Assembly (NCBI GenBank): GCA_903813345.2
Contig: CAIIXF020000008.1
Coordinates: 27,762,822 to 27,826,821, forward strand
Direction of reading: 5' to 3'
Length of the DNA stretch: 64,000 bases
Source of the DNA: Owenia fusiformis
Lineage: Eukaryota; Annelida; Polychaeta; Sabellida; Oweniidae
Shown: one piece after another, positions 3,101 to 61,113 of the stretch
Numbering within the stretch: position 1 is the first letter of the stretch
Layout of the letters: the number at the start of each line of letters is the position of its first letter
The notes under the pieces: generated by a model
The model's input: only the letters and a program-made list of their open reading frames with translations
Told to the model about the DNA's origin: nothing
The model's database searches: none
Translations under genes and position numbers: made by a program

Positions 3101-6100
3101 AACTTCTCACTGTTAAGATTAACATTCCCGAACAAGTGAAGGAACGATTTGTGAGATTTTGCCAACAAAAGTTTACGCACAGAAATTGTAGTGATCTTGT
3201 CAGAAGCATTATACAAAAAAGCATAGAGGATGCTTACAAGAGGCTGATTCATCCCCTTATATGTAGACAGTTCAGGTATTTCTGAATTCTTTATTTACTA
3301 GCGCTTTGTTGTAACATGATGTGCAAGGTCATCGTTTTTTTTAGTGTTGGATTTGAGCTACAGTCACAGGATGCAGTTTGTAAGTAGAGAGGTTTTCATT
3401 ACATCTCCTTTTTGAAAACAAAATGATTCTCCTAGTTGGTCATAAGTTGCTATTCCTTTTTATGATCATAAAATAACCTTTCTCATGAGATAATGAAAAT
3501 CGCTTCATTACATCAAGAGAAAAAACAAAGTTCTATCAAAATTTCATCTATCACAGGCATTTTTAAGATAAATCTTGCAGTAAATAATTTGTCCTGATGC
3601 CCTTAGGACTTTGGTAGTTATTGTTGCAGGAAATTTGAAATTGAGGCTGGACATCTTGATTTTTCAAGTTATTAAAAAACAATATTGGAGATGAAAAACA
3701 TGTAAGACAATGAGTTATCTTGAAGCAAAATTCAACTCTATGTCATAAATTTTTCTAGGTCTGATTTAAAGAAAGTTGCAGAGAAGGCATCCATTGATGT
3801 ATTTGCTGGGAATCTCAAACAGCTACTACTAACTCCACCTATAAGGGGAAAGGTAGTTCTTGGAGTTGATCCAGGCTTCACTAATGGTTGTAAACTTGCA
3901 GTCACTGACCCAATGGGTAAATTGCAATATCTTTTAATCTTATTTTGAAAAACTGCTTTATTGTTGTCTTGTGTCTGTAGGTCAGAGTACGATAAGAATA
4001 TATACCATTCAATGGCCTAGCCCGTAGCCGAATTCGCAGAATTTGTGCAAATTCCCCCCCCCCCCCCCCTGGCCAAAAATTCTTTCAAAAACATGCAGTT
4101 TGCACCATTTTGAGCACTTCTCAAGTGATTTTAACCATATTTGGGCCAAAATTGTCAAATGTGAACCCCCCCTGGAAATTAAAAAAAATTGAACCCCCCC
4201 TTGGCAAATCCTGGCTACGGGCCTGATGGCAAACACAAGAAGGTATTATCTTTTCTACTGCTGGTGATTTTTTATTTATATTAAACTATGCTGTATGTGT
4301 AATGTAATGAATCTTGAATTGATATTTGTGCTCAAAATTGGTTTAAAACGATTTTAGTAGAGCCTGGACCAGAGGAGCCAAAAAGGTCTTACAATGGCTA
4401 GTAGGTTTGTACAATGTACATGTATATAGGTTTTATCCTTTTAAATGGTATATGATATGATAAATGATATATCCCGATCCCTATGAATAACCTTATGCAT
4501 TGATGGAATGAATAATTACAAATAAAACTGTGATTTCCATCTTTTGAAAAGTTATTGAATCCCTCTCTACCAAACAAAGGTTCCACTGTTTAATAGTATT
4601 TAATGGTCTCCTCCTCTACAGTATTGTAAAACAGTTTTGTGATATTTATATTTATTTATTTAGACAATTATACACTTTTAACAGTGGCACTTTTAAAATA
4701 AGGTACATCTATAGGAAGTTATACACAGTGACATGGAGGTTAAAAACATAATATTTCTATCAAATATTAAAATAAGTTTTAAAGGAATAAAAATATAAAC
4801 ATGTTAATATTTACATTATATTATTTCTAGGTGCAATATTGGAAACAGGGGTTGTATATATTCACTCTCATTGTATTTCAGTTGCAATATTGGAAACAGG
4901 GGTTGTATATATTCACTCTCATTGTATTTTAGGTGCAATATTGGAAACAGGGGGTGGTATATATTCACTCTCATTGTATTTTAGGTGCAATATTGGAAAC
5001 AGGGGTGGTATATATTCACTCTCATTGTATTTTAGGTGCAATATTGGAAACAGGGGTGGTATATATTCACTCTTATTGTATTTTAGGTGCAATATCGGAA
5101 ACAGGGGGTGGTATATATTCACTCTCATTGTATTTTAGGTGCAATATTGGAAACAGGGGTGGTATATATTCACTCTCATTGTATTTTTGGTGCAATATTG
5201 GAAACAGGGGTGGTATATATTCACTCTCATTGTATTTTAGGTGCAAAATTGGAAACCGGGGTGGTATATATTCACTCTCATTGTATTTTAGGTGAAATAT
5301 TGGAAACAGGGTTGCTATATATTCACTCTCATTGTATTTCAGGTGCAATATTGGAAACAGGGGTGGTATATATTCACTCTCATTGTATTTTAGGTGCAAT
5401 ATTGGAAACAGGGGTGGTATATATTCACTCTCACAAGGCAAACAAAGCCAGGGAAACTATGAAACTTAGGGACATAATACTCAAACACAGGTACATTAAT
5501 AATTTAATATACATTTATAGAGGTTATTTACTGGGAGGTATTGACTATGGGTTTTATACCACCAATATTGACCAAGGTATAAAACACATATTCTATTCTC
5601 AACCAGGAATAATAATACATGTATCAACCTAAGAACATGAGTGAAAAATAACTTGATTCATTTTTAACATTGCGAACACAATTTAATGTCAGGAATGTTT
5701 TTCTGATCTCTAGATGTGAGACTGTTGCTATAGGGAATGGAACAGCATGCAGAGAGACGGAGGCTCTCATCTCTGACTGTATAAAGAATAATACATTTAA
5801 ACCACTCAATGTTATGTACTGGTAAGCGACAATTGAAATATGAAATTATGCTACATTTCAAATTTAATAGTCTGTCATGTATAAAGTGACATTATGGCAA
5901 ATAATTGAAAGGCTCTGGTTGAAAATAACCAACCAAGGTTAAAAAATCTCAAATCTGCTTAGATGTTGGTCCTAAGAAAAGCCCACAAATGAAAAAAAGA
6001 TATTGCTGCATTTACAACTTCTATTGATATTTGGGTCTGAAAACAGCATGTTGGATAAATTTCCGAGTCCGAAAGTGTATCCAAAAATCAAAATATATGG

Positions 6101-9100
6101 ATGAGAACTGAGCCTCCATTATACAGTGTATCAGAGGCACAACTAGAAATACCCGACCTTGACCTATTATTTTATATGATATTACAGTATAGTGAATGAG
6201 AATGGAGCCTCCATATACAGTGTATCAGAGGAGGCGCAACTAGAAATGCCTGACCTTGATCCAACCTTGAGAGGGGCAGGTAATGTAATATGTTTCTCAT
6301 TCCATTCTCTATATATTTCAATGGTATTCATGCATAATCTTTATGTTTGATACAGTGAGGTTATGAACCCATTATGTTGATAATTTGAAATTTGAACAAA
6401 ATTACAATCTACCTGTTTTTCAAAAAACTTCAAAATTTGTTTAATCCATGCAGTAGCTTTAGAAATGACACCCTATTCACATTAGTAAGGTTCACATTTA
6501 AAATAAGAAAAACAGTCATTTATTTTTATATGGAGGTGCCAAATTGTAGTTTAAGTGAAAGTGTATACAAGGCTTATAATATTGTCATTGTAGTGTCTAT
6601 AGCAAGAAGGCTTCAGGATCCTCTTATTGAACTTGTAAAGACTGAACCTAAGCACATTGGTGTAGGAATGTACCAGGTATACAGTAATATGAAGATATAG
6701 TTGAGTAAACAAGGGTCAAAACAATTATGCTATTTATTATTTTATAGGTTTTTCATTGTACTGTACAGTAGAGTATACATTTTAATAATGATAATGATAA
6801 AAAATAACGATTTTTCATCATGCTTCTAAAAGATAATGTTTTAACTTGTAATTCACTAATATAAATTAAAACCTGTGTGATGAAATGGTTAAGTTAAACA
6901 ACTTAGTAATCAGTGATCTTCCAAAAGCTGGTGAGATCCTTAAAGCTGACATTATCACCTTTCAATTGGTATATTAAAACGTTTGAAGATATAAAACATA
7001 CACTAAAATGTTACATAAGGACTTCAGGAAGAAAATTCACGTTTTACATTCTAATTAGTTTGTGGAAAAATTATTTTACTGGAGATAATTGAACTCTCGT
7101 ATTCTCAATTCTTCCAGCATGATGTGTCGGAGACTCAACTCAAGCAGTCCCTTGATGAAGTTGTTGAGGAATGTGTCAGCTTTGTTGGTGTGGACCTGAA
7201 TGTTTGTACAGACCTCATGCTGAGGTAATCCATAAGTTGACATTAAAATAAGCAATGATGCACATTTTACTGGCTATAACCGGAATGTCATCAAAATACA
7301 AAAAATCTGGATCAATGTACATGTGTCATTTAAAATCCTAATAAATCAATGTGATAAAATTGATTATTCTTCTGCTTTCATAATTGTTAGGAGGATTGCT
7401 GGACTAAACAAAAAAATTGCCAAGAACATTGTAGACTGGAGAACTGCAAATGGGATGATAAAAAATCGTAAACAATTGTTGAAAATCCGTGGATTGGGAC
7501 CAAAGACATTTGAGCAATGTGCAGGCTTCATAAGAATCTTGCCGAGTACAGTAATGAAGTAAGATATGTTGGGATACTATTTTATTATAATCCCCTGAAT
7601 AAGTTCAAGGGGGTGTATTTCCATATCAATGACACAAAAGATAATGCAGATTATAATGATTACATTTGTAGTAGCAACAGCAACATAGTGCATTATTATG
7701 AAGTCACTGCCACAAGTGGTGACATTGTTAAGTCTCCAACTATCTTGTGAATGGAAGTTGGAGTATGATTGATCTACGAGTGCTGTTTTGAACTTTATGC
7801 AGCTCCTTGTCGCTTGGCTGTCGTTTTTGCCTCATTGAGTCACCTTTTGTATACTAGTAATACTAGTAAATCTTTATTTTCAACAATAATGTTTTATGAA
7901 AAAATACTTGTTACAGAAAAGAAGAAGATACTGACAGTATTGATGGAGCATGTATGAGTACATGTACATCAAAGAAGCGGAAATCAACTGGACTAACTCC
8001 GAAATCTAAGAAGAGAAAGTTGGATGTTGCATCATTTGATGTAAATCCCCTGGATTCCACTTGGATACATCCTGAATCATACACCATAGCAACAAGGTAG
8101 GATTAGTTTATCATTAATTCGATTAGACATCTTAAAATCATACACCATTAGAACAAGGTGTAGACAGTTTATCTAAGGTACATTATGTAGATGAATGGAG
8201 TCACTGTTTTTAAAGTCATGAAATTGCTATAGGTTGTAAAATCAAATTATGATAATAAATTCTTCAAGTAAGTTTCTCGACACAAAGCCACAAGATGTTA
8301 TGGTAACAGTGGTCAGAGGTATGTTGGGCAATGTCATCTGATTGTGGGTATTTGAGCATGAAAAAGAGCTGTAAACTGCAATTTTAAACCAAATGTTCGT
8401 CTCTTCTTATGTTACCTTTTTGTCAATTTTCCCCATGTTACTATTAATTTTAAATCAAGCAGCCTGATCTAGTTTTGAATTTGATTTTTGTGAGCACAGA
8501 AGTCAAATTTAGTTCAAAAGTTAATTTTCATAAAAAATGTCAATCTGTAGCACTTGAACACTGATATCCCTAAAAGTAAAGCCATCTACATGTATATCTT
8601 ACTGGAAACCCTGTTTATGTAAATTCCATCATTTTTTGTCAGGTTTCTTGAAAAAATAAAGGCGAATCCAGAAGAAATAGGCCATTCCACTATAGAACTG
8701 AAGGTAGAGGCTGCACTCAGGTCAACAGGTATGTACATGTATAGTTAAGTGAGATTACATTTAAGAAACCATTCTCTCCTTCTTTTTTTTTTTTTTTTTT
8801 TCAAAAGTTAATCAGCTCTAGTACTTTTTTTTCATCAGTATCATTACATATTCATATTACATAATATATTCTCAACATAACATTCATAACATAATATATT
8901 CTCTCCTTCTATTTCAGTTGCTAGGAACACCTGTTCATTTCACATCTTTCAACCTCGAAAATAACTTGATCCAGTGAAGTAAATCTGCCTGATTATGCAT
9001 TACAGTGTCATCTCCACTGTTCCCAGGATTTTTTTCTCAAGTTGGTGCAAAATGTTCCCAATTAAGACTTTTGGTCAAAATATGCCTATTTTTCATGAAA

Positions 9101-11572: not shown

Positions 11573-12609
11573 TTTAATTTCTCCTGATGAAATTCCTAAT
11601 AAATGCTTAAAATAACAGGATTAAGACAAAATATGTGCTTAAAATATAGGAGGATTGTATATTAAACTTGTCAGGATATGTTTAAAATATATGACAATAA
11701 TTTAAGAGGATTATAGAACTATTATTTGGCTGTTTAAAATGGAGTAGCATTATGCTTTAGACAATAAATAACTACCATGTGCATACAATATAGGAGGATT
11801 ATGTGTTAGATAAGGAACTTATATCAGAAGATTATAAACACTACTATAAAACTACTATTATTACTTAACTACTTTAAAGATTCTCGCAATCTTTATCCAA
11901 TCAGCGTTTGCGAGTGTGTCGGCTCACGTATAAAAGGCGAATCCAACTCAAATCCATGCAGGGGTGTATGAGGTACTCGAGGAAAGAGCTCGTGAAATCT
12001 GAATTTATATGCACATGGTCAATGTTTACACATGTTTGGAGTTATTGAAGAAAATGTGATATGGGTGTGGTTCCGAATTTGAAGTCATTGCTGGAAATAT
12101 GATTTTAATACGTGAAATTATATCTATAAATATAGCACTAAAAATAACAGTACACATAAAGTACATGTATGATTGTGTTCAGAAATGTTTGAAACCCTTA
12201 CGGAAAATTCTGTCTGCATTTTGTCACCATTGCTCTTTCTCATGTTTCTTCCCGCATTCTAGTGCTGTTTGAATGAATATATTAATTAATGTATTTCTAA
12301 CTAAAACATATCACATTTTTTTTATAAACCACAAACATTTAGATCATAAAAAAATTATTCAATACTTGAGTGAGCACGATATGCAAGGGTTACTAAGTTG
12401 ACACAGTAAATGACCACATTGTGTTAGGCCATGCACACAGCGTACACCCCTCACTTTCATAGTGAAGTGACTAATTGGTTTATGTTTACGTTTTAATGTG
12501 TTTTGGGTTCCTTGTTACAGCAAGGGGGGCCAGTAAAGTAGACTAACATGTTTGCATGGCAAATTTTGATCGAATATGTGAGACACTTTAATCCTGATCA
12601 TTTACCATC
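11573..12609. other. Stretch without a recognised gene; possible LINE 5' leader
   Basis: No coding exon seen. 11573-11870 has a loose repetition of AGGAGGATT motifs. A CCAAT/TATA pair lies at 11897-11935. Part of the segment before 12610 may be the 5' UTR of the LINE, but its 5' end cannot be placed without another copy. Confidence 0.4.
11897..11935 (+). promoter_or_regulatory. Promoter-like CCAAT box and TATA box
   Basis: CCAAT at 11897-11901 and TATAAAA at 11929-11935 have Pol II-like spacing and face the LINE, about 675 bp before ORF1. LINEs of this type usually use internal TATA-less promoters, so this may be chance or belong to an unseen transcript. Confidence 0.3.
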
Positions 12610-13293
12610 ATGCCACCACCAAAAGTTGACAAACTTGATAAACTTGAAAAAATCATCGAAGCCCTAACTCAAAAAATAGCAACCCCAGAGGACATCAGAC
12701 TTATTGTAAAAGAGGAACTTTCGGCATCTTTGGAACATCTCAACGACAAAATTGTAGCGCTGGAGGAAGATAATCAACAACTAAAGGAAACAATCAAAAA
12801 CCAGAACATTAAGCTTCTCGAAATTGAACGACATGCTAACTACAATGAACAATACTCACGAAAATCAAATATCAAAATTACTGGCGTAAAGGAAGAGGGT
12901 GATGAAGTTTGTAGCCAGACAGTTCGTAAAATAGCTACTGACATTGGTATTAAGCTTGGAACAGAGGACATAGATGCATGTCATAGGGTTGGAAGGAAAG
13001 TCGACGCCAAAAATGATGCCTCCACAAAACCAAGGTCCATAATTGTGAGGTTTAAGGCACGGGAGCACAAAGAGAAGTTCATCAGCAATCGTAGACAACT
13101 GAAAGGAACAGGGATAGGTATACATGAAGACATCACTAAAAAGAACATGGGACTGATCAATCGCCTAAAAAATGATCCAAATATAACTGATGCATGGATG
13201 TTCAACACCAAAGTCTATTGCCGCCCGCAAGGCCGAAAAGGAACTATCCAAGTCGATATTGGTACACCAATAACAGATATTCTATCTAAATAA
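12610..13293 (+). CDS. LINE ORF1 protein (coiled coil plus L1-ORF1p-like RNA-binding fold)
   Basis: The 227-residue ORF begins at the ATG in ATCATGCC. Residues about 5-80 are heptad-like and charged (KLDKLEKIIEAL, LEEDNQQLKETIKNQNIKLL), predicting a trimerising or dimerising coiled coil. From about residue 85 the YSRKSNIKITGV, DACHRVGRK, RSIIVRF and FISNRRQLKG segments match the RRM-like and C-terminal RNA-binding parts of LINE ORF1 proteins (Transposase_22 type). In known LINEs such proteins coat the RNA and chaperone target-primed reverse transcription. The frame is intact. It is followed 124 bp later by the unidentified ORF. Clade assignment is not possible from ORF1 alone. Confidence 0.85.
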   Translation: MPPPKVDKLDKLEKIIEALTQKIATPEDIRLIVKEELSASLEHLNDKIVALEEDNQQLKETIKNQNIKLLEIERHANYNEQYSRKSNIKITGVKEEGDEVCSQTVRKIATDIGIKLGTEDIDACHRVGRKVDAKNDASTKPRSIIVRFKAREHKEKFISNRRQLKGTGIGIHEDITKKNMGLINRLKNDPNITDAWMFNTKVYCRPQGRKGTIQVDIGTPITDILSK

Positions 13294-13869: not shown

Positions 13870-16800
13870 ATGGATGACTTGCAAATTTATGAGCTACCCT
13901 TTTATAACGTTACTCCAGTGATGTTCTTTGATGTCATTCCATCAGCTAATAATCACATTGACTTTGAAAGCTTAATGTTCAATCCAAAAGACCTTGATAG
14001 AGGTGTTGCTAATGACCCCTCCAATCATAATGTTATTGAAGATAATGATTTTTCAACAACTTTAATTGAAAAATGTAAATATTATACTCTTGAGCAAATG
14101 AACAGCCAACCAATGGACAGTGGAAATAATTTGTCTATGATACATGTAAATATGAGAAGTGTCATGAAAAATCAATGGAAATTTGATAACTTGCACAATT
14201 TATTAAAGCATGACTTCCCTATCATAGCCATGTCTGAAACCTGGTTAAACAATAACAATCAAGATACTTATAACTTAGAAGGATATAGCACCATATGCAA
14301 ATCTAGAGATGGTAGGATAGGGGGAGGAGTTTGTATACATATTCTTGATAATATTAATTTCACCAAAAGACCAGATTTAGAATTTAACATGGATAATTGC
14401 GACTCATGCACCATTGAGATGTCTTTAAAGTCTGGGCAAAATATACTGACGTGTCGCAAAAAGGTGGCGCATTTGTTTTTTAAGGGTATCGCGTGAATGT
14501 AACTTTGATTCCCCGGATTATAAGATAATATTCTAATTAAAGTTATATATCATTTTTAAGCTGTTTCGATGAAGATTTTAGATCAACTACACTCCGTTCA
14601 CATTTTTTGCGCGTTCGTTTTTAAAAAAGAGTTTTTTACCAAAACATCTGGCAAATATCCCATGTTGACACGTTACATTTTGAATTATTTTTCGTCTTTA
14701 AACGCTCATAACTCAAACAATATATGACTATTATACTTATTTTTCGTCTTGATAAAGGTAGATGGAAGTTTTATTTCAAAGGATGAATTATAGTAAGCGT
14801 CCCATATTGTGACGTCATAGAGTCTGAAAAATATAATCTGTTGACAGCGACCTTTTTTGCTCATTTTTTGGTACCTTCAACTTTTCAGGTGTACATTAAA
14901 CAAAAAATAAAAAAATCAATTTTTAATTAATCATACATGATTATTTTGCTCCTAAACTCTAGTTTATTAATAAATAGTTGATTTTGTTCACAAAAGTATG
15001 TATTTTCTGTTGTATGTGGAAATGTGGAGGACGAAAGGTTTTCAAAATTCATTAAAATAGGGCTAATTTACGCCATTCGCCTATTTTCAAGCACAGCAAC
15101 ACGTATATTTATTTCACCTAAAATATCAATTGATTCGTGTTTTATGATGCTCCTAGCCCATTAACAATATATATATGATATCAGAGTTATTCGTCTAAAA
15201 TGTTTTGAGATATAGAGGTAAATGTGGAGGACGAAAGGATTTTCATGTGTGTACATTTTTCTCCAAAACGTCACATTCTATCATGTTAAAAGCGAGGATC
15301 CTCTGGATTACGCCACAAAATGTGTAACAATGCGTGCGCGAGCTTTTTGCGACACGTCACTAATATCTGTCCTTTATAAGCCCCCGAATGTTAACCTCAG
15401 AGATTTTAACAACAACATAGATATATTTCTTAAAAGATTAAATGGTGAAGGGAAAGTCACGTACATTTTAGGAGACTTTAACATAGACCTCTTAAAGGCA
15501 AATGAGCATTATATGACCGAGGATTTCTACAATTCTTTGTTAACAAATGGTTTTCATCCTTCAATCTACAAGCCAACACGAATAGGATCAAGATCAGCTA
15601 CCCTTATTGATAATATTTTTACAAATGCTGTAGATATAAGTTATTCTGGCATAGTGCTAACTGATATATCTGATCATTTCCCTATTTTCTTAACCACTAA
15701 AAAACAACTAAAACAGTCAATTTACAAGACTATTAATTATAGGATTATGAATAAAACAGCTAAGGAGAAATTCAACTACCAGCTTTCAAACACAGACTGG
15801 AATGATGTCAAACAATCAGATAATTGCAATCAAGCATATTCAGTTTTTATTGACAAATTTATGAGTGTTTACAATGAATGCTTTCCTTCAAAATCAAAAA
15901 CAATAAAGATTTACCTTAATACAAGGAAACCTTGGTTGACTGACGCTATTCTCACATCAGTTAAAGAGAAGAACAAACTATATAAAGAATATTTAAAAAA
16001 TCCCAATCCTATTAATAGTACTAATTATAAGACATATAAAAATATTCTCACAACTCTAATACGGAATGCAGAAAAAACATATTTTAAACAAAAAATTGAT
16101 GAATGCAAAGGGGATGTTAAGAAAACCTGGTCAATATTAAACAAGATTTTAAAAAGAAAACATAATAAATCACAGGATGTTCCATTCTTTCAAGTTGATG
16201 GTAATAAAATTACGGACAATCAAGGTATAGCCGAAAGATTTAATGACTTTTTTGCAAATGTTGGGAGAAATCTAGCAAATAAAATTAAACCTAATAAATC
16301 TTTTAGGGGTTTTATGTCAAACAATGACAGTGCTAATTCCTCAATTTTCTTAAGACCAATCTCAGAGGAAGAAATAGTAAATATAATATCTGAACTTAAG
16401 AATGGTTCACCTGGACTTGATCAAATCAAACCAGTTATATTGAAAGAAAATAAGCTTGCTCTAGGAAATATTCTGACTTACTTATGTAATATATCACTTA
16501 AAACTGGAGTTTTCCCAGACACCTTAAAAACTGCCAAAGTTACTCCTGTATATAAAAAGGGCTCTGTTCACCTTTTCACTAATTATAGACCAATCTCACT
16601 TCTTAGTGTTTTCTCTAAAGTATTCGAGAAAATTATGCATAAAAAAGTCACACTATTTTTGGATAAATTCAAATTATTAAGTAAAGATCAATTTGGTTTC
16701 AGAAAAAACCTATCAACCTATATGGCAATTCTCACCTTTTTAGAATCACTTCGAGATTCGCTTAATAATAATAAGTTCTGTATCGGCCTTTTTCTTGACT

Positions 16801-17900
16801 TATCGAAAGCTTTTGATACGGTTGATCACGCTATTTTGCTGGAGAAGCTTCATTATTATGGAATTCGTGGTGTTGCAAACTCTTGGTTTAAATCTTACTT
16901 AACGGATAGAAAACAAATTACACAATATAAAGACCATGTGTCAACCCCAACAACTATTTCATGTGGAGTACCCCAAGGGTCTATCCTAGGACCCCTACTT
17001 TTTATTATTTATATAAACGACCTCAGTTTTACTTCTTCTATATTGAAGTTTGTACTTTTTGCAGATGACACCAGTATTTTACATTCAAATGAGTCGAAAG
17101 AAGAACTCATATCTGTTGCAAATAATGAACTTAAAAAAGTCAATGACTGGTTCATGGCTAACAAGTTATCACTTAATATTGAAAAGACTAATTTTTTATT
17201 CTTTTCACCTAAAAGAGGAACATATAACCCTGAAGAAATCAAGATAAAAATTGATGACAAAAATATTACAAGGAAGGATAACATTAATTTTCTTGGTGTC
17301 CTAATCGATGACAAACTAAATTGGAAACTTCACACTCAAAAACTAAAAGGGAAAATAGCTAAAATTATACACATGTTATATACTTCTAAGCACTTACTTG
17401 ACAACTGTTCGAAAATGAAAATTTATAATGCTCTTATTCATTCGGGGCTTGATTACTGTAATATAATTTGGGGTAATGCTGATAAAAATCTCCTCAAGCC
17501 TCTGCATATACTCCAGAAGAAATTTGCCAGGTTAATAACAAATTCTAGTAAGTTAGCTCATGCTGCCCCTTTATTGAAAGATCTTAGAATCTTAAATATT
17601 TATGACATATTTAACTTGAATGTTGCCAACTTTGCATACCAAAATATGAATAAACCTGACAAGTTCCCATATCACCTTTTTAATCAATTCTATTCCACAA
17701 ATGCTGATACACATGACCATGAAACTAGAAATAAAGACCGTATACGTTCATATATGTTTAAAAACAAATTTGGTGAAAAGTCAATAAAAGTAGAACTATC
17801 GAGAGTTTGGAATGGAGTAAATGGAAACATCATTATGTCTTCTACTTTATCTTTGTTTAAATCGTCTTTGAAATCACTTCTCCTCTCCACCTACATCTAA
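13870..17900 (+). pseudogene. LINE ORF2: APE endonuclease and reverse transcriptase, split by a MITE
   Basis: Frame 13870-14447 carries the endonuclease start (HVNMRSV, AMSETWLN, GGVCIHI). Frame 15362-17900 continues with SVLYKPPN, LGDFNIDLL and SDHFPIFL (endonuclease catalytic motifs), then reverse transcriptase: DLSKAFDTVDH, the CGVPQGSILGPLLF motif, FADDTSIL (catalytic Asp pair) and NFLGV, and a C-terminal region ending at TAA. The 911-bp insertion lies between; the two parts are in the same frame once it and one 3-bp duplication are discounted (about 1,038 codons). No other stop or frameshift is seen. As it stands the ORF cannot give a full protein. Confidence 0.9.
14448..15358. mobile_element. 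Non-autonomous DNA transposon inserted in LINE ORF2
   Basis: 911 bp with perfect 16-bp terminal inverted repeats (GACGTGTCGCAAAAAG) and a 3-bp duplication ACT at 14445-14447 and 15359-15361. Beyond the perfect repeats the ends stay similar (GGTGGCGCA against GCTCGCGCA). An internal direct repeat (AATGTGGAGGACGAAAGG) lies at 15018 and 15221. No transposase is encoded. A 3-bp duplication fits Harbinger, CACTA or Zator superfamilies, but the termini do not settle it. Confidence 0.92.
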
Positions 17901-38000: not shown

Positions 38001-40198
38001 AGAACTTCTTTCTCACGAAAGGGATATTCAGCAAGATCAGGTGGGAGAAAATTATACCATTATTATCAAGAAGTACGAAGTGGGCCTGTGAAGGTTATGC
38101 CTGGGTCACATTTGCTCCAAACCACCGGCCGGCGCCCCGCCGATTGAGTGTTTTGTTCATTATTGTATTTAATTTTGAATAAAATATTACTCAATCGGCC
38201 AGGCGCCGTAGTGAAAATCTGAGCAAATGTGATAAAGGCATTAACGGTCCAATTTAATCAATACATCTAGTTTTATTAATGTTTAGATAATGCATCGAAA
38301 TTTTTAGCCTCTGGTGTACGTAGCAAATGAAGGGGCAGGGTACATGGCAGGGCTTATATTGTTGGAAAACATATCATAGCATTCAAACTCGATGTTCGAC
38401 CTTGACCTTGATCGAGGATAACATTGAAGACGTCGTTATTTTCTGATATTACAAATGACTATAAATTCATAATCAGCGATCCAAAAGATTTGAACTAATA
38501 TCTTGATCAATTCTTGTGTGTTTTGAATTTTTTGTTTCGAAATAAGACCAAAGCTCGCGATTCAAATTTTGAAGTGAAAAAATGGCAGACGTTTTGATTT
38601 TGAAATTTGTTTTCACGACATAAAAAAACCTATATAGCAGAATATCGAAATTGCATTCTTGGAGCTAGTTCTCCTTTAAAACATATTCTCCACCCAGTTT
38701 GGGTGAATCATACTTACTATCCTTCAAACTCAGTTTGAAATTCTTGGAAAAAATGAAATCCAATGCCATACTGTATTATACTTGGGATATTCGCGTCACC
38801 TGTACTTGATTTGCATATAATGATTAGGTAAATTGATAAGAATCAACATCAATTTGTGTTTTCTACAGTTTTTCTTTTCGCTCCATAAGCAAAGCTAAAA
38901 ATTGATCTTTAATATAGATGGCACATGTAAGTGCTCTGAAAAAATATTCCGCACCATGAATGCAAGTTATAAGCATTTCCAATCATTTATCAAATCCAAA
39001 TAAATTAAAATAAGTTTAATAAATAAATAAATTTTCTGCCCTTGATTCCCATACATAACACTTACGTCAAGTGGCAAAAGGGCAATATTTAAATAAGGGT
39101 TCATTGATTGTGATCATACATATTTTAAACGATTGAACGCATAGCATTGCGGATCCTGTAAAAATATTCCAAATATAAGAGAAACGATGTATATCGAAAT
39201 TTTAATCTCAGTGTGATATCCAGTGTCCTTTTGTGTGGCTAGAAGTCCTAAATGAATAAGGATAATAATATAGTTTCTGCAACAAAATTAAATGGGACTT
39301 GTGTGTTCTTCTTTCAGTGACACGCTGTGGGACAAAAGAACCGAAGGGGAAAGTAAAGATACCAAGAAAAATAAAGCCGTGGAAAATATCAAAACGTAGA
39401 CGTGGCAAAAAACGCAACAAACGATCAAACAAGCCCCTTAGAACGATACCTATCAACTTTCATGTTATATACTCTGAAGAATATTACCAATATCCAAATG
39501 TTGGAGGTAAGCTTGATAGAGCACGGATCGAATCTCAAATAGCCAGTCTAAATAACGCATATTCCGGTGCGGTGTCCAAAGACAGCGTGGATACCCGCAT
39601 TCGCTTCACTTTAAATAATGTTTCATACACTGATAATACGACTTGGTTCTTCTATTGTGACTACTATTTTGATGTCATAAAGAAGGAGGTCGTAGTCGAC
39701 CCGGCCACAACACTAAATCTCATTAGTTGTAGGCCATTTGGTGGTTTTGGCGGATGGGCGACACTACCCTATCTTGATATTCCAGAGGACGACTATCGCA
39801 ACGCTGTGTTCATTAATCATGACGCCGTAAAAGGGAGCAATAAGTACCCATATTGGACGCAAGGTTATACGGCTGTTCACGAAATTGGGCATTATCTAGG
39901 TTTATATCACACTTTTCACGATTACAAATGCCACGCGGCGGACGATGAAACTGGAGGCGATGGTGTATCAGACACTCCACCAGAGGTGACCTATGGTTTA
40001 CGATGTAAGGACATTGGTCGGGATACGTGCAAAGGTGACACGAATGACACAATTGTGCCTCCTTATAACGGCAAAGACCCTGTTACAAACTTTATGGATT
40101 ACACAGAGGACTCTTGTATGTTTGAATTTACTGCTGGACAAGCAGCAGTCTTGAACAACGTCACTGCTTCAAAGAGGCCATCCCTGATACTCAATTAA
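32083..40198 (+). CDS. Secreted M43 (pappalysin/cytophagalysin-type) zinc metalloprotease
   Basis: Exons 32083-32212, 37527-37586, 37906-38040 and 39318-40198 (TAA) join in phase 1 to a 401-residue protein. The ATG at 32083 opens a signal peptide (about residues 1-28, hydrophobic FIVALAVLGLVIPI). The propeptide is about residues 29-144: it contains RCGT near residue 111, a possible cysteine switch, and ends in a furin-like RNKR at about 141-144. The catalytic domain has the zinc site HEIGHYLGLYH at about 296-306, the M43-type Cys/Asp stretch ending SDTPPE, and the Met-turn NFMDY. Known M43 enzymes are secreted endopeptidases; the substrate here is unknown. The first exon is the least certain, being 5.3 kb upstream. 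Confidence 0.85.
32241..32362. repeat. CACATTTGCTCCG palindromic MITE, copy 2
   Basis: Begins CACATTTGCTCCGATC and ends GGAGCACATGTG; inner GGCGCCCGGCCGATGAG. It lies 28 bp after the first metalloprotease exon. Confidence 0.75.
32418..32717. mobile_element. 300-bp MITE, CACTGGTGATCC family, with 5-bp duplication
   Basis: The ends are CACTGGTGATCCGCTCGATC and GATCACCAGTG-type complement, and ATTTA is duplicated at 32413-32417 and 32718-32722. The arms also carry GGTAACAAAATGTTGGAACG. Non-coding, in the first metalloprotease intron. Confidence 0.85.
32951..33290. mobile_element. 340-bp TIR element
   Basis: CCTGTTTAAGAACCC with ATGGATTCAAGCAATACTAT at the left is met by the reverse complement at the right (33236-33290). 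The inside also pairs partly (GTACTTGTTGA with TCAACAAGTA). No target duplication is clear. Confidence 0.75.
33291..34202. other. Intron stretch without recognised feature
   Basis: Part of the first metalloprotease intron. No repeat partner within the window and no convincing exon. Confidence 0.4.
34203..34296. repeat. Short tandem duplication (about 48 bp x 2)
   Basis: TTGAAAATAAGTATTTGATA with AATACTATGTACAACT and AGATCATTC occurs twice in a row, the second copy lacking a few bases. Confidence 0.9.
34680..34980. repeat. CACTGGTGATCC-family MITE, degraded copy
   Basis: TTGATCACGCTGATTACCG, GTGTGTCAGTATCAT and GTCGTGGGAATTCTGTC are shared with 61630-62140, but both outer ends are lost or altered. 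Confidence 0.7.
35060..35248. repeat. 16-bp tandem array, GATGAGTTGTCCAGG
   Basis: Twelve or so units alternating GTTGTCCAGG and GTTGTCTAGG, some of them 15 bp. Non-coding and intronic. Confidence 0.9.
35317..36394. mobile_element. 1.08-kb mariner-like non-autonomous element
   Basis: CAGGGTGTTCCAAAAGTAAC and its complement form the ends, with TA on each side. The arms run about 200 bp (both include ATTGGGATGTCATGTTACTA). The interior gives no recognisable transposase. Confidence 0.88.
36478..36598. repeat. CACATTTGCTCCG palindromic MITE, copy 3
   Basis: CACATTTGCCCCGATTCATC at the left and GATTGAGTATTTTGTTCAAA inside; the right half carries GGCGCCGCCAATGAATCGG. Confidence 0.8.
37035..37325. 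repeat. Dispersed repeat, GGGGCAACAAGGC family, copy 2
   Basis: Matches 20111-20345 in order but has an extra segment (37137-37190, CATTCGTTTGACTTCACTTC) that also occurs near 54060-54110. Confidence 0.7.
38107..38231. repeat. CACATTTGCTCCG palindromic MITE, copy 4
   Basis: CACATTTGCTCCAAACCACC to GAGCAAATGTG, with the GGCGCC and CCGATTGAGTGTTTTG core. It sits 66 bp after the third metalloprotease exon. Confidence 0.8.
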
Positions 40199-45360: not shown

Positions 45361-47448
45361 AGACTGACTTTAATATTTTTGCAAAAACATTTACAAGTTT
45401 TCAGAAGTTCATATCTTACTCTAGATTTCAGATTTGACCTTTAATGACCTTCTCAAGGTCATAAAAGGTTCAAAAAGGTCAAAAAGGTATTTTTCAACTT
45501 GCTTCAAATTGACCAATCCTTTCAAAATCATGTACAAGCATTCAGAAGTTCAATTCTGACTTTTTATTTAACATTTGATTTTCAATGACTTTCTCAAGGT
45601 CAAAAAGGTCAGAAAGGTCTTTTTTCAACTTGCTTCAAATTGACTAAACTTTATTTTCAAAATCATCACAAGTTCTCAAAAGTTCAAATCTATAGATTTA
45701 AGATTTGATCTTCAATGACCCTCTCAAGGTTAACGAAGATTTGACCTTCAATGACCTAATTTTCAAAAATGGCCTCTTCAACTCAGTTGCTGACTAAAGA
45801 TTTGAAATTTGATCTTTAACGACCTTCTCAAGGCCAAAACGGCTCATAATATTGTGAGCAATTAGGTGGTGACATTTCGTCATGTTAATGCCTTGTTATC
45901 AACATATTGGCACAACTGTTACGCTTATACACTCATGTTTGATGATATTTGACTAAGATCTTATACCACAAGACACCATTGGATGATAAAAGATTGATGC
46001 TCCTGACGAGAAACCATCTTAAAGGCAGAATCAGATCTACAGGGGTAAAAAAATTACAAGCAACGTGAACAATTGGCCTATTAATCTATTCTTTATAATC
46101 CTAAATACCATATCTCCCAAAAGATTCACAATATGTTATAAATTGATGAAGTCATTAAGATTCAAAGTAATTAAAAAATAATACATTATTGTAAAAATCT
46201 TTAGTTTTCCTGAAATAAAGTGATTGAAACAATTTTTTGTTGGCCTGCTCGCTAGATCTGATTCTCTCTTTAATAAGAAATTAGTTTTTCAAAACGTGTT
46301 TCTAGGTTGCGTTTCAAAAAAGAATGCAACCCTGTCACAGATGCGCGATTACATTTTGAATCCCCATCTGATTTTTTTAGTTTTAAACACTTTGATTTAT
46401 TTACAGACTGACTTTAATATTTTTGCAAAATCATTTACAAGTTTTCAGAAGTTCATATCTTACTCTAGATTTCAGATTTGACCTTTAATGACCTTCTCAA
46501 GGTCATAAAAGGTTCAAAAAGGTCAAAAAGGTATTTTTCAACTTGCTTCAAATTGACCAATCCTTTCAAAATCATGTACAAGCATTCAGAAGTTCAATTC
46601 TGACTTTTTATTTAACATTTGATTTTCAATGACTTTCTCAAGGTCAAAAAGGTCAGAAAGGTCTTTTTTCAACTTGCTTCAAATTGACTAAACTTTATTT
46701 TCAAAATCATCACAAGTTCTCAAAAGTTCAAATCTATAGATTTAAGATTTGATCTTCAATGACCCTCTCAAGGTTAACGAAGATTTGACCTTCAATGACC
46801 TAATTTTCAAAAATGGCCTCTTCAACTCAGTTGCTGACTAAAGATTTGAAATTTGATCTTTAACGACCTTCTCAAGGCCAAAACGGCTCATAATATTGTG
46901 AGCAATTAGGTGGTGACATTTCGTCATGTTAATGCCTTGTTATCAACATATTGGCACAACTGTTACGCTTATACACTCATGTTTGATGATATTTGACTAA
47001 GATCTTATACCACAAGACACCATTGGATGATAAAAGATTGATGCTCCTGACGAGAAACCATCTTAAAGGCAGAATCAGATCTACAGGGGTAAAAAAATTA
47101 CAAGCAACGTGAACAATTGGCCTATTAATCTATTCTTTATAATCCTAAATACCATATCTCCCAAAAGATTCACAATATGTTATAAATTGATGAAGTCATT
47201 AAGATTCAAAGTAATTAAAAAATAATACATTATTGTAAAAATCTTTAGTTTTCCTGAAATAAAGTGATTGAAACAATTTTTTGTTGGCCTGCTCGCTAGA
47301 TCTGATTCTCTCTTTAATAAGAAATTAGTTTTTCAAAACGTGTTTCTAGGTTGCGTTTCAAAAAAGAATGCAACCCTGTCACAGATGCGCGATTACATTT
47401 TGAATCCCCATCTGATTTTTTTAGTTTTAAACACTTTGATTTATTTAC
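45361..47448. repeat. 1,044-bp direct tandem duplication
   Basis: 45361-46404 is repeated at 46405-47448. By eye I find one substitution (A at 45387, T at 46431). Each copy contains degenerate AAGGTCA/TTGACCTT repetition, and no gene. The right end of copy 2 abuts the MITE at 47448. Confidence 0.93.
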
Positions 47449-51754: not shown

Positions 51755-51965
51755 CAGGCCCGTAGCCAGGATTTGCCAAGGGGGAGGGGGGGGGGGCAGT
51801 TTTCAAAAATGTCTAGGGGATTCACATTTGACAATTTTGGTCCAAATATGGCTAAAATCACACGAGAAATGCTCAAAATGGTGAAAAACTGCATGATTTT
51901 GAAAGAATCTTTGGCCAGGGGGGTTCGCCCGAACCCTGCGAACCCCTCCCCTGGCTACGGGCCTG
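51755..51965. mobile_element. MULE-like MITE, CAGGCCCGTAGCCAGG family, copy 3, with 9-bp duplication
   Basis: 211 bp; ends CAGGCCCGTAGCCAGG and CTGGCTACGGGCCTG; CCTATAACC duplicated at 51746-51754 and 51966-51974. The 9-bp duplication points to the Mutator superfamily. Confidence 0.88.
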
Positions 51966-54682: not shown

Positions 54683-57600
54683 TTAATCATAGGATTTTAC
54701 ATAGTGAAATTTAAAGCTGGCATCATTCTTGAACAACTCAGATCCGTCAGATGGATTAAGTTTAAGGCGGAAACCCTGATGGCGTATGAATCTTCCGGGA
54801 TAGTTCACAGACTCGAAAGCAACGAATCCTGTGAAAAAATTGTCGCTTCTGATCCTGAACGTAGCATCTTGTGAGAACATCGGAGAAACAGCTGGGTCGT
54901 ATTTGTTATCAATTTGCAGAAGGAACCCAGTGTGTCGAAGATAGTATCCTGGTTTTTCTTTGTACATTAAAGAAACGGTTCCCTCTTCTCCCGTCAAGCC
55001 GGGTTGTTCTACCACCCACTTGTTTGGGCATGTCGCATCAGCATCGATGATAAAACCCAGGCCGGCAGAATTCACATCAATAATCTTGGCTGGGAAATTC
55101 TTTGACGAAATTACAGCTAGAAGTAATAATTCAACCTTTTTAAATTAAAATGTGAGAATGTTTTGATTAGTTCAATTCTTCTAACGTCAAGATTCTCATA
55201 AAAATTACATCCAAACTTAATGTCTTTTAAAAATCAGTAGTGCCTCAAAATCATTGTTCAGTTGTACTCCTATATTTCTATATTATTTCTGCATATAAAC
55301 ACAATTAAAAAGATTTAACTTACCATTGGGAAAGCCTGCACCTGAAAATTTAAACATAAAATTTAAGCTGAGTCAGTCAGAAGATAGACATCTTTATCAA
55401 ATCTCAAACCACATGTCATACTGTGACGAATTTGAATGTCTCCTATCTCATCGCAAAAACACGAAACCAAGTTTGTGTGAAATTCTATTTATTTGTAAAA
55501 ATCCAAAGTTCCGAAAATATGCTTCTTACAGTTTTTGTCTGACTCCAGTCCATGCAACGAGGTTCCGAAGATTTAATGTAAAATTGCCTCTTTTATTCCC
55601 AAATTTTGAGGTAGGCAGAGCCAAAATAAGAGGTCTTGTCCAATCAAATCTCAATAATAACCATTTATAAAAATTGGCCGAAAATATGTGTGAAATAATT
55701 CTCTAGATATAAATATAAATATTATAGATTTCTGCCTACATTGTTTAGAAAAAGGTCGAAGGTTTCCCATAAATCCCATTTTTGTTGATAATTCGTGATT
55801 GCAAAAATTTAGTGTTTACATGGACCAGAGTTTGTATGACGTCATGCGAGTGAACTATTCACCGCTCTCATTTAAGCTATTAAGTAATTAAGTCCATAAA
55901 ATACACTTTTTATAATCATTCAAATGCTAAAAATTACAGAATAGTTTTCACAATTGTACAAAGATTATATATGTATAATGATATAGAATATATGTCCTCT
56001 AAATATTGATAATTGGGTAATTAGCACTGAAACACACCATCAATAATTCATATTTCTTTGTTGATGTTGTTCTGTCAAAATGTAATGTTGCATCCGGAAA
56101 ATATAAAAACATATCACCACCTCATTAATCAATGATTACAATTCTTCACATTTAGATCATAATTTATCCCATGTCAAAAGTCGCTAGGCCCAACCTCCAA
56201 AGCTTTTCTCATTACTATTGGTTACATTAAAGAAATATCCAGAAGCACCATCAGCTCTTGTATTCAGTTTTCGTGTTATGTTGATTCTAGCAATGTTTTA
56301 ATGCTTACAAATCGCTATGTTAATCGGTAGATGTTGATTGAAACACAACTGATATAATAACAACCCAAATGGTGCCAGAATCAACAACGATAAATCAATT
56401 CAATCCAAAGTTAATGTAACCTTACTTTTCAAAGCTGAACACAGATATATTAGATCATAGTTAATTATAAAATAAGCCCAATTGCAACTTTGTCACAATA
56501 CATTAACTCTTGGTAACTTGTAAATAGACGATGTTTAAAAAAGGTTTGTTCAATTTGAAGCCGGTGTGAAAGAAATGATGGTCCCCAAGGGATTATGATC
56601 CCATTTCTAAACGACCCTCATTGGCCCTGATCGCGTATAAGATAATGAAGGAAAGAGTTGTATTTAGGTCACCATATAAATCAATGGAGAGTAGGACCAT
56701 AATTTGATAGGACTTCCTACCCTTTTTACCAATCAAACAATTCGAAAATTTATGAATAAGCAATTTTTCCAAAATGTTGAACCTATTTACTCAAAAGATC
56801 TTCTTAAAATTTCTGATTTTTATTGCATGAGGAAATTATTCAATAAGGGGTCTAAAACTTCGTCAAATTGTAGAATGGTTTTAAAATCTAGTTTTGAAGA
56901 TATCAATTTTCGATGATTTATGCTGAAAATAATGGGCAGCACGAGTTTTCCCTATTCCCTATTTCCCATTTTCATGAATTATTAATAAAGTGTAGAAGAA
57001 ACTTCTGATATTGGGAAAACCAAATCCCCTTTATAGAAAATAAACCTATTTTTTAAAAAAAGGTGCAAAGGCGGGTTCCTAATCCATGATTTTTCAGAGA
57101 GTTGGATTGATATTTTACTATCACAAGGACTTCACTTGAAAAAAATAGTTATTTTCACAAAACCCCTGTATTTATGACCATAAAATACTCATGGGGAAGG
57201 ATATGACTGTCTAAAATCACTTGCAATAACTCACATGGTCCTTTGACCTTGAAAAATTTAAAAAAGCTTTTTTAATTTTTTGACCGGGACTGATATTCAC
57301 GTCACATCCTCTGCAGAGCCTTCATGAAGAAACCTTCATGAAGGTTTTAAGCTAATCTGGCATTCTGTTAGATTTGAACTTTTTGATTTTCCACAACTGT
57401 TTCAGAACCGAACCCCTCGGAATTTCTTAAAAAGTGAACCCCCCTCAGCAAAGCCTGGCTACGGGGCTGAACACCCTTCTGAATAAGGACAGTGTCCCTT
57501 GCCCAGAGATCTCAAAATGTTCAAGATACAATATCCCTTGACCTGACCATGGAGCCCTTTCTTGGCCCATGCACCCTATACAGTAGTTCAGATTTGGCCA

Positions 57601-58680: not shown

Positions 58681-59085
58681 CTATTTCAAAAAATCAAACA
58701 GACGAGGTGGATTAAGTTTACTACTACTCCCAATAATAACACTCTACTATACCTTGCATTTGACTTTCATGAGCAACCCATTTGGCTTATTAGTAATGAT
58801 TATATATTTGTTTTTATTTGTCTGTTCCTTATTAATGGTTTATCGGTTGAAAGTTAGATGTTGATAAGGTACTTTCAAAAATATACTAAACAATCCAATT
58901 AGACAAACAAAGTATCTTATGCATTTCTAGGTGTTAGGTATAGTAGTGTGAATAAGCCCTTTCATTGAAAGAAATGGCATGTGAATAGCTCTTACGATCT
59001 CACATTTTTCCGAAATAGTAAAGTTTCCATATAGCTTTTGAAATCTCGCTAAATCTCGTTTTTCGTGAGATTTTAAGAGACTTGC

Positions 59086-61113
59086 ATGTTACCACAACGT
59101 AACTGCAAAACCTCACATTTTTCAGATGTGCTAGATGAACTTGAAGATGTCATATGTTCTTTAAAACAGGATGGCGACGTTATGCTAATGGGTGACACCA
59201 ATGCTAGCATGGGGTGTCTATATGGTGTTCGTGGTAATGGTGAGATTAGTAGAAATGGAATTTTATTGAAAAACATGTGTTTACGATGTAACCTTAAAAT
59301 TGTAGATTTAACTAGCAAATGTACTGGTCCTGACTACACGTTCTTCCGAGAAAATGTTGGTAAATCATATATAGACCACTGTATCATTTCTCTAGAATGT
59401 ATGAACACGGTGAAATCCGTATGTGTGTTAGACGATGAATTGTTGAATAATTCTGATCACCTTCCCTTGCAGACTGTTATAGAAGTTTTCATTCCGGTGC
59501 CAATCACATCGTCAACCAATGGCTGCAACCCAGTGAAACTAGCTTGGAATCGCCTTGACAATAATTCTATTTATGAGAGCTATACTAAGCAACTAACGGA
59601 TCAACTGGAACCTTTAAGACATCGGCTGAGTGAAACCGTAGCAGGACGTGTTTTGACATCTGCCGAGATTGAATCCGGTTTTAATGATCTATCGTCTGTA
59701 CTAATGACAGTATCATCAAAGTCAATACCCCATAAACGTTTCAGAAAACATTTGAAGCCTTACTGGACAGACGTTTTAAAGAGTTTATCTGCTGATAAAA
59801 AGATGGCGCTGAGAACATGGATACAAAACGGCCGCCCAAGAGACTCGAATAACATCCACTGGACACGATATAAAGATGCCAAACGAACGTTGAGAAGGGA
59901 ACTACGTATTGCTGAGTATAGATATGAGCATGAGTGTCAGCAGGAAATAGACCGCGCTGCTGAGATCAGTATGAAACAATTCTGGTTTCTAGTTAAGCAG
60001 CGTCGGGGTAGGACCAACAGTTCTTATTCTATCCGGATATATGATGGAACTATCTTAACTAATAATGAGGACATTCGGGAGGAATGGATGAAATACTTTA
60101 GTACCCTAATGGCCATCAAAGAGGAAAAAGACTTTGACAACAACCATGAGAAACATGTAAACGAGAGACTGAAGGAGATGATTGAAGAAAGTACCAGAAA
60201 CAATGATGGATCGTTTACAGATGAGATAGATGATAATGAAATGGAGGAGTTGATAAAGGGACTATCTAAAAATAAGGCTACCGGATGGGATGAAATAAGC
60301 TCAGAGCACCTGTATCATGGAGGCACACTGGTCATCAACATACTAACGACCCTCTTTAACCAACTCGTGAAAACTGAATACGTACCTGCTAGCTTCAGAC
60401 TTGGTGTATTGATCCCCATCTTCAAGGGTGGCAACAAAGACACACTTGAGAAGGATAACCATAGAGGGATAACCCTAATAACCACATACATGAAGATCCT
60501 CGAGAAACTAATGGTCACAAGGAGCAAAAGGTGCAACCAGACTGAGGAGACATCCCAAATGCAGGCTGTCAATAAGAAAAGGACGTCATGTATTGACACG
60601 TCATTTCTGACACGCGAAGCAATCGCCCATGGGCTAGAAAATGGCGAAGATGTCATTTTGGTGTCAGCTGACATCAGAAAAGCTTTCGATACCGTATGGC
60701 AAGAAGGGCTGCTCTACAAGGTGTATAACAGTGGCATAAATGGCAAACTATGGCGGTTACTAAAATTGTGCTATGATAACTATAAGTGCGCTGTTCGCTG
60801 TGGAAATGATGGTAAGCTGTCAGAACAGTTCATCGTATCACAGGGAGTCCATCAGGGCGGGCTGTACTCGATGGAATTGTACCTTAAGTACATGAACGAC
60901 CTTCTCATTGAAGTCGAGGAGTGCGGCAAGGGTGCATCAATAGGTGACATAGTATGCACCTGCCCTTCATATGCGGACGACACTGTAATAATAGGATATC
61001 ACCAGGAGTCCGTTCAAAGCGTAATCAATATATTACATGAATACGCAATGAAATGGAGGTTTAGATACCATCCTGATAAATGCCAATTCGTTTCAATGAT
61101 TTCGATCAAATAG
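59086..61113 (+). pseudogene. LINE ORF2 fragment (endonuclease plus reverse transcriptase), both ends missing
   Basis: Open for 675 codons. The N-part has the endonuclease end (DGDVMLMGDTNASMG, SDHLPLQ). The reverse transcriptase has NKATGWDEIS, LIPIFKGG, the HRGITL motif, VSADIRKAFDTVW, QGVHQGGLYSM and the catalytic YADDTVII. It lacks the start of the endonuclease and stops about 40 codons after YADD, with no 3' UTR or tail. It differs strongly from the LINE at 12.6 kb (QGVHQGG instead of CGVPQGS), so it is another clade. It lies between the sushi exons (minus) and the EGF exon (plus). Confidence 0.85.

Follow-up and report, generated by a model that had tools for sequence, protein, structure and literature searches.

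The arrays closest to the one analysed here are the mirages of amphioxus, and for those of Adh an earlier account, dated 2002, is said to exist. Human factor VII intron 7 carries a minisatellite that begins at an exon boundary and contains copies of the donor site, and an effect of its copy number has been reported. For an interferon-induced human transcript (the gene being G1P3/6-16, in keeping with a paper that cites the work, PMC2572611), a minisatellite that provides several splice donors was reportedly described in Nucleic Acids Research in 1995, and human tandem-array introns are said to provide further introns born of tandem duplication.

Mirages are minisatellite-like tandem duplications of exon-intron boundaries, and the part of the mirage report used here describes them in Adh3 and in the globin genes BflGb6 and BflGb9 (PMC3087553). 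According to this part, their length differs between haplotypes, somatic instability occurs at Adh3, and AG or GT is present in many units; furthermore, the Adh3 data and RT-PCR suggest that mirages leave regular splicing undisturbed (PMC3087553). In the sections considered of another report, human internal tandem repeats in segmental-duplication genes, some of which lie at exon-intron boundaries, are said to give alternative splicing via novel introns (PMC2812944). Introns derived from tandem duplication are represented, in the passages drawn on here, by the Rogers model, ATP2A1, potato RdRp, and 24-bp arrays in fission yeast (PMC4974935).

In this study, an array at a splice boundary of the SRBD1 gene of Owenia fusiformis was analysed in a window of 64,000 nucleotides, which is the whole stretch of DNA under analysis. 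In its anatomy, the array is a mirage-type minisatellite, a kind already described in lancelets and found here in an annelid. The features of the locus are as follows.

3759-3916, plus strand: SRBD1 exon 5' of the array, ending GAC CCA ATG G / GT (phase 1), from the spliced model
3917-5393, plus strand: intron of 1477 nt, the last 563 nt of which are array units 1-11
4797-4830, plus strand: likely original 3' end of the intron, with branch-like TTAAT (A at 4807) and TTTAC (A at 4813), a T-rich tract, and AG
4822-5433, plus strand: minisatellite of 12 units of 51 or 52 bp, from TRF and unit-by-unit reading
4831-4984, plus strand: units 1-3, acceptors 4831, 4882, and 4933, out of frame and leading to TAG at 5136-5138
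4985-5138, plus strand: units 4-6, acceptors 4985, 5036, and 5087, out of frame and leading to TGA at 5293-5295
5139-5393, plus strand: units 7-11, acceptors 5139, 5241, 5292, and 5343 open and in the frame of 5394; TG instead of AG at 5190
5373-5393, plus strand: end of unit 11, with branch-like TTCAC (A at 5376) and CTCAT (A at 5382), a T-rich stretch, and AG
5394-5490, plus strand: SRBD1 exon of the deposited protein, 97 nt, starting with unit 12; donor GT at 5491

The gene model consisted of 17 exons joined by GT-AG and phase, with 3 exons upstream of the window. With 3916 joined to 5394, the spliced model reproduced all 790 residues of P0001, the deposited Owenia fusiformis protein that was its best database match. 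A candidate exon at 8269-8322 was absent from this protein and was removed from the model. Pfam analysis of the model protein indicated Tex_N, the Tex central region, Tex_YqgF, HHH, and S1, and therefore the gene is SRBD1; the name given to it in the sequence-only reading, a first inspection of the window from its letters, is borne out by these domains and by the identity to the deposited protein. All of the protein's genome matches (17 of 17, in the 498-Mb genome) were located within the SRBD1 locus.

The Owenia annotation was built from RNA-seq alignments, filtered junctions, de novo transcripts, Capitella protein hints, and Augustus; in the part of the paper used here, RNA-seq support is claimed for 99.29% of the annotated transcripts, and repeat-overlapping predictions were taken out (PMC9977687). 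The deposited SRBD1 protein presumably derives from this published annotation (PMC9977687) and may rest partly on hints or filtering. It fits acceptor 5394 only, and its database cluster has one member. Because its presumed source annotation dropped repeat-overlapping predictions, the absence of minor isoforms is weak evidence.

TRF analysis of the window gave 4822-5433 as a single array with a period of 51, 11.9 copies, 95% matches, and a score of 1106. Each unit consists of the 40-nt exon start (GTGCAATATTGG...CACTCTCA) followed by an 11-nt acceptor ending in AG, and the unit starts are 4831, 4882, 4933, 4985, 5036, 5087, 5139, 5190, 5241, 5292, 5343, and 5394. TRF and these starts agree with the sequence-only reading, which had described a 51-bp unit of this composition repeated 12 times. 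Units 3 (4933) and 6 (5087) are 52 bp long, with one additional G within a G run. AG precedes 11 of the 12 unit starts, as had also been claimed, and 5190 alone is preceded by TG; the splice signal is thus kept in many, not all, units, as in mirages. Unit 12 (5394-5433) is the start of the real exon and continues into unrepeated exon up to 5490. Hence, the last unit of the array runs into the SRBD1 exon, i.e. the minisatellite spans an exon boundary, and the extent of 4831-5490 given earlier takes in more than the repeat, which ends at 5433; the rest is unrepeated exon. The array sequence was found at one location in the 498-Mb genome, a single haploid assembly. A search within 1.5 kb of the 32 SRBD1 splice boundaries detected a boundary duplication at one of them, 5394, with 30 of 30 bases; at the other 31, no similar duplication was found, the best matches within 1.5 kb being 15-21 of 30.

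Translation indicated that the six most upstream AGs of the array would lead to premature stops if used, and that the four in-frame decoys would insert 1, 2, 3, or 5 of the 17-residue repeats; these four keep the frame because the unit is 51 nt long and open. Two statements of the sequence-only reading were thereby confirmed, namely that 5139, 5241, 5292, and 5343 are open and in frame with 5394, and that 5087 and the acceptors upstream of it are out of frame owing to the two 52-bp units, the stop for 5087 being at 5293-5295. The point of insertion would lie after residue 359 (DPMG), inside the Tex_YqgF match (residues 337-465), and its surroundings were judged from the Pfam range and an alignment to Tex (2oce, 3bzc). 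The 17-residue repeat had been placed after a YqgF-like segment ending in DPMG; the DPMG site was correct, whereas the site is within Tex_YqgF and does not follow it.

Acceptors were scored with a matrix made from the gene's 15 other acceptors, for which the leave-one-out mean was 4.1 (range, -5.5 to 13.7). Three decoys, 4831 (10.8), 5343 (9.1), and 5087 (8.6), outscored 5394, which had 7.4 in common with the remaining AG sites (eight sites including 5394), and 5190, which lacks AG, scored 2.8. All 10 AG decoys were accordingly in the range of 7.4-10.8, above the leave-one-out mean of the gene's other acceptors. In positions 30-63000 outside 4800-5500, a score of 7.4 was reached by 74 of 3233 AGs (2.3%), including real acceptors of the gene. 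The acceptor at 4831 had the top score of the 58 AGs in 3940-5420, and it is likely that 4797-4830 holds the original acceptor of the intron. Unit 11 contains two yTnAy motifs, in which the A precedes the last intron base by 17 and 11 nt; both of these branch-like As fall in copied exon sequence, and the motif was matched in unit 11, to which the other units are near-identical. As for donors, GTG/GTATAT in the unit scored 5.3 and AG/GTGCAA scored 1.8, the leave-one-out range of the gene's donors being -3.6 to 10.4. Among the GTs of the window outside the array, 184 of 3291 (5.6%) scored at least as high as GTG/GTATAT and 30% at least as high as AG/GTGCAA.

Local acceptor scores give no ground for favouring 5394 over 4831, 5343, or 5087. 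By local sequence, 5394 is not the best site; what distinguishes it is its nearness to the donor (97-nt exon). Choosing the first AG past the upstream branch-like sites would give 4831 and consequently a stop.

Proteins bearing the repeat were also searched for. In the alignment with the model, an insert between G359 and A360 was found in none of 120 SRBD1 proteins, which were the best 120 of 7998 scored and included the deposited protein and many vertebrate proteins. One of the 121 aligned rows had three extra residues, at least 3 residues downstream of the insertion point and not at it. When a 138-aa query that included one additional copy was searched, 69 candidates yielded 29 matches; the top-scoring match had 48% identity, and the highest identity, 63%, extended over 46% of the query. 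None of these matches exceeded 63% identity, and therefore none is from SRBD1 of Owenia. The repeat junction HSHCI occurred in none of the 149 fetched proteins.

The 12 units contained 13 substitutions relative to the consensus, of which 10 were non-synonymous and 3 synonymous; the possible changes numbered 117 and 36, respectively (76% non-synonymous expected). One AG position was struck by these differences, against 0.48 expected. Private substitutions were present, and one change was common to units 1 and 2, indicating that the substitution events are not all independent; several may be shared by descent, so that the neutrality count represents few events. The frame is broken by the two 52-bp units. 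When the extra G was disregarded, units 3, 4, 7, 8, 11, and 12 had the same 40 exon nt; the differing units were 1 and 2 at the 5' edge and also 5, 6, 9, and 10, and unit 12 at the 3' edge did not differ. The unit differences look neutral, and, the events being few, weak selection is still compatible with them.

The frequency of minisatellites was estimated from 20 evenly spaced 10-kb stretches of the same chromosome using TRF (period of at least 20, at least 5 copies). In the 200 kb sampled, 15 TRF rows were combined into 11 arrays, which fell in 7 of the stretches and made up 3.6% of the bases; 4 of the 11 arrays came from the stretch nearest the chromosome end. Minisatellites are thus common on this chromosome, and an array at some acceptor is no surprise; given how many acceptors the genome has, random placement should put arrays at some of them.

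Other features were observed in the window and in the samples. Large minisatellites of the same-chromosome samples were L008:3755-5496 (117 bp x 15), L014:1387-2379 (29 bp x 34), and L023:2435-3360 (29 bp x 31). A dispersed element, perhaps SINE- or MITE-like, was detected as BLAST pieces of 36-175 nt that were 71-92% alike; it lies at 3996-4230, shortly before the array and within the SRBD1 intron that holds it, and also at 1082-1244, 51755-51923, and 57410-57470, i.e. in another SRBD1 intron and in other parts of the window. Of 22 other genome stretches compared, 5 contained it (L003, L014, L017, L018, and L021). Long open frames with RVT_1, resembling non-LTR retrotransposons, were present on the plus strand at 15222-17897 and 59077-61110, and upstream of the former, a frame of 231 aa (12598-13290) had no Pfam match at E 0.001. 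Open frames at 39269-40195 (plus) and 54686-55144 (minus) had Peptidase_M43 (pappalysin-like) and AbfB domains, respectively. TRF also gave two repeats with a 130-bp period, 45465-45730 and 46509-46774, which are 1044 bp apart. They agree in copy number, score, and displayed consensus, which points to a duplicated segment of about 1 kb.

We consider it likely that the array is a young, essentially neutral mirage minisatellite and that the regular SRBD1 mRNA is made mainly from acceptor 5394. A segment over the 3' end of the intron and the start of the exon would have been duplicated in tandem and then, presumably in this order, would have grown to 12 units via unequal exchange or slippage. The copies would now sit inside a lengthened intron, and the spliceosome would still produce the ancestral mRNA, with 3916 joined mainly to 5394, beside the unrepeated part of the exon. 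Most likely, exon definition from donor 5491 would prefer the shortest exon (97 nt) among the near-equal acceptors, and the upstream copies would be decoys that are probably used rarely, if at all. By analogy with amphioxus, the length of the array likely varies between individuals.

The high scores of the 10 AG decoys (7.4-10.8 against the mean of 4.1 for the gene's 15 other acceptors) and the open 51-nt unit with four decoys in frame would also suit a functional rheostat, in which acceptors compete and the unit number and frame set the share of productive, 17-residue-lengthened, or decayed mRNA. The sequence-only reading had likewise proposed that decoys may be used and that the number of copies could tune the length of the protein or transcript decay. 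This proposal is unsupported: the deposited protein fits 5394 alone, its cluster holds no second sequence, no repeat-bearing fragment appeared among the 29 matches of the extra-copy query, and no insert was found in the best 120 of 7998 proteins. Furthermore, the unit differences look neutral, with one AG lost and two units shifting the frame. We therefore regard a functional rheostat as very unlikely. Slimmer still is the chance that the array is a heritable, copy-number-variable rheostat, in which one donor is contested by near-identical acceptors and individuals differ in SRBD1 output according to their unit number; the positions of the 52-bp units would then set the share of mRNA that is productive, lengthened by 17 residues early in the YqgF-like domain, or decayed.

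Errors of long reads or polishing might instead account for the copy number or for the two 52-bp units, which differ by one G in a G run. The assembly was made from PacBio Sequel reads with Arrow and short-read Racon polishing, as stated in the part of the paper used here (PMC9977687), and one amphioxus mirage was misassembled in a draft, according to the sections cited above (PMC3087553). However, the units carry private substitutions, and the read N50 of 25.75-30.75 kb, in the available account of the assembly, far exceeds the 0.6-kb array; the array as such is therefore unlikely to be an artefact, and the probability left to this explanation is very low. Recursive or intra-array splicing, in which an upstream acceptor is used before whole units are removed through AG/GTGCAA or GTG/GTATAT, is assigned a lower probability again. 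The mature mRNA could be the same as the deposited one, and the score of 5.3 for GTG/GTATAT is in the range of the gene's donors, AG/GTGCAA scoring 1.8; yet these donors are unremarkable, because 5.6% and 30% of the window GTs outside the array score as high, and use of GTG/GTATAT would leave a 23-nt microexon that is absent from the deposited protein. Least probable of all is a coding repeat, in which the array would be translated as part of an exon that truly begins at 4831 or at some other unit upstream. Site 4831 scores highest among the acceptors of the intron and has branch-like sites of its own upstream, but the frame from 4831 stops at 5136-5138 with loss of the rest of SRBD1, and the deposited protein contains no repeat copy; the array accordingly does not behave as a coding VNTR. 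A young, essentially neutral mirage thus remains the preferred reading.

In comparison with the human cases named at the outset, the factor VII repeats begin at an exon boundary, as in Owenia, on the donor side there and on the acceptor side in Owenia. The minisatellite of the interferon-induced transcript also has a splice site in its unit; the sites are donors there and candidate acceptors in Owenia. In introns from tandem duplication, as given in the passages cited, the duplication supplies splice signals as in Owenia, whereas the intron is new there and probably pre-existing in Owenia (PMC4974935). Creation of the present intron by tandem duplication was rejected, its ends being unlike (within 1.5 kb, best match of donor 3917, 18 of 30; acceptor 5394, 30 of 30). 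The human boundary repeats belong, in the sections considered, to paralogs with transcript evidence, whereas Owenia SRBD1 is one single-copy gene known from the genome and the protein (PMC2812944). A prawn lectin gene was rejected as a parallel, since its repeat is part of exon 2 and its alternative acceptor belongs to exon 5 in the part of the report used (PMC7536079), as were DDX3Y and the intronic minisatellites of C. elegans, which, as far as their sources were drawn on, are different phenomena.

No earlier annelid case of a boundary minisatellite was met in the searches made of open-licence literature, which did not use the word "mirage". The locus offers a natural experiment on acceptor choice, with a row of near-identical 3' splice sites of which the last fits the deposited protein and three upstream score higher. 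This row bears on scanning versus exon definition, and the array also bears on how the start of an exon, once copied, can take the roles of branch region and T-rich tract in a lengthened intron.

The resemblance to the amphioxus mirages is the closest. In the part of the mirage report used here, the BflGb6 mirage repeats the 3' end of an intron with the start of the next exon and adjoins the authentic exon, as does the Owenia array; splice signals are likewise found in many, not all, units; and the Adh3 unit range of 10-72 bp takes in the 51 bp of Owenia (PMC3087553). The authentic boundary is used in amphioxus mRNA, and the last acceptor fits the deposited protein in Owenia, although the evidence for regular splicing is RT-PCR in the former, within the sections cited, and the deposited protein in the latter (PMC3087553). 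Owenia is an annelid with 12 units, whereas amphioxus is a cephalochordate in which BflGb6 haplotypes of 6 and 3 units are described in the same part (PMC3087553). Mirage-type minisatellites are now seen in an annelid as well, suggesting that they are a general by-product of minisatellite growth.
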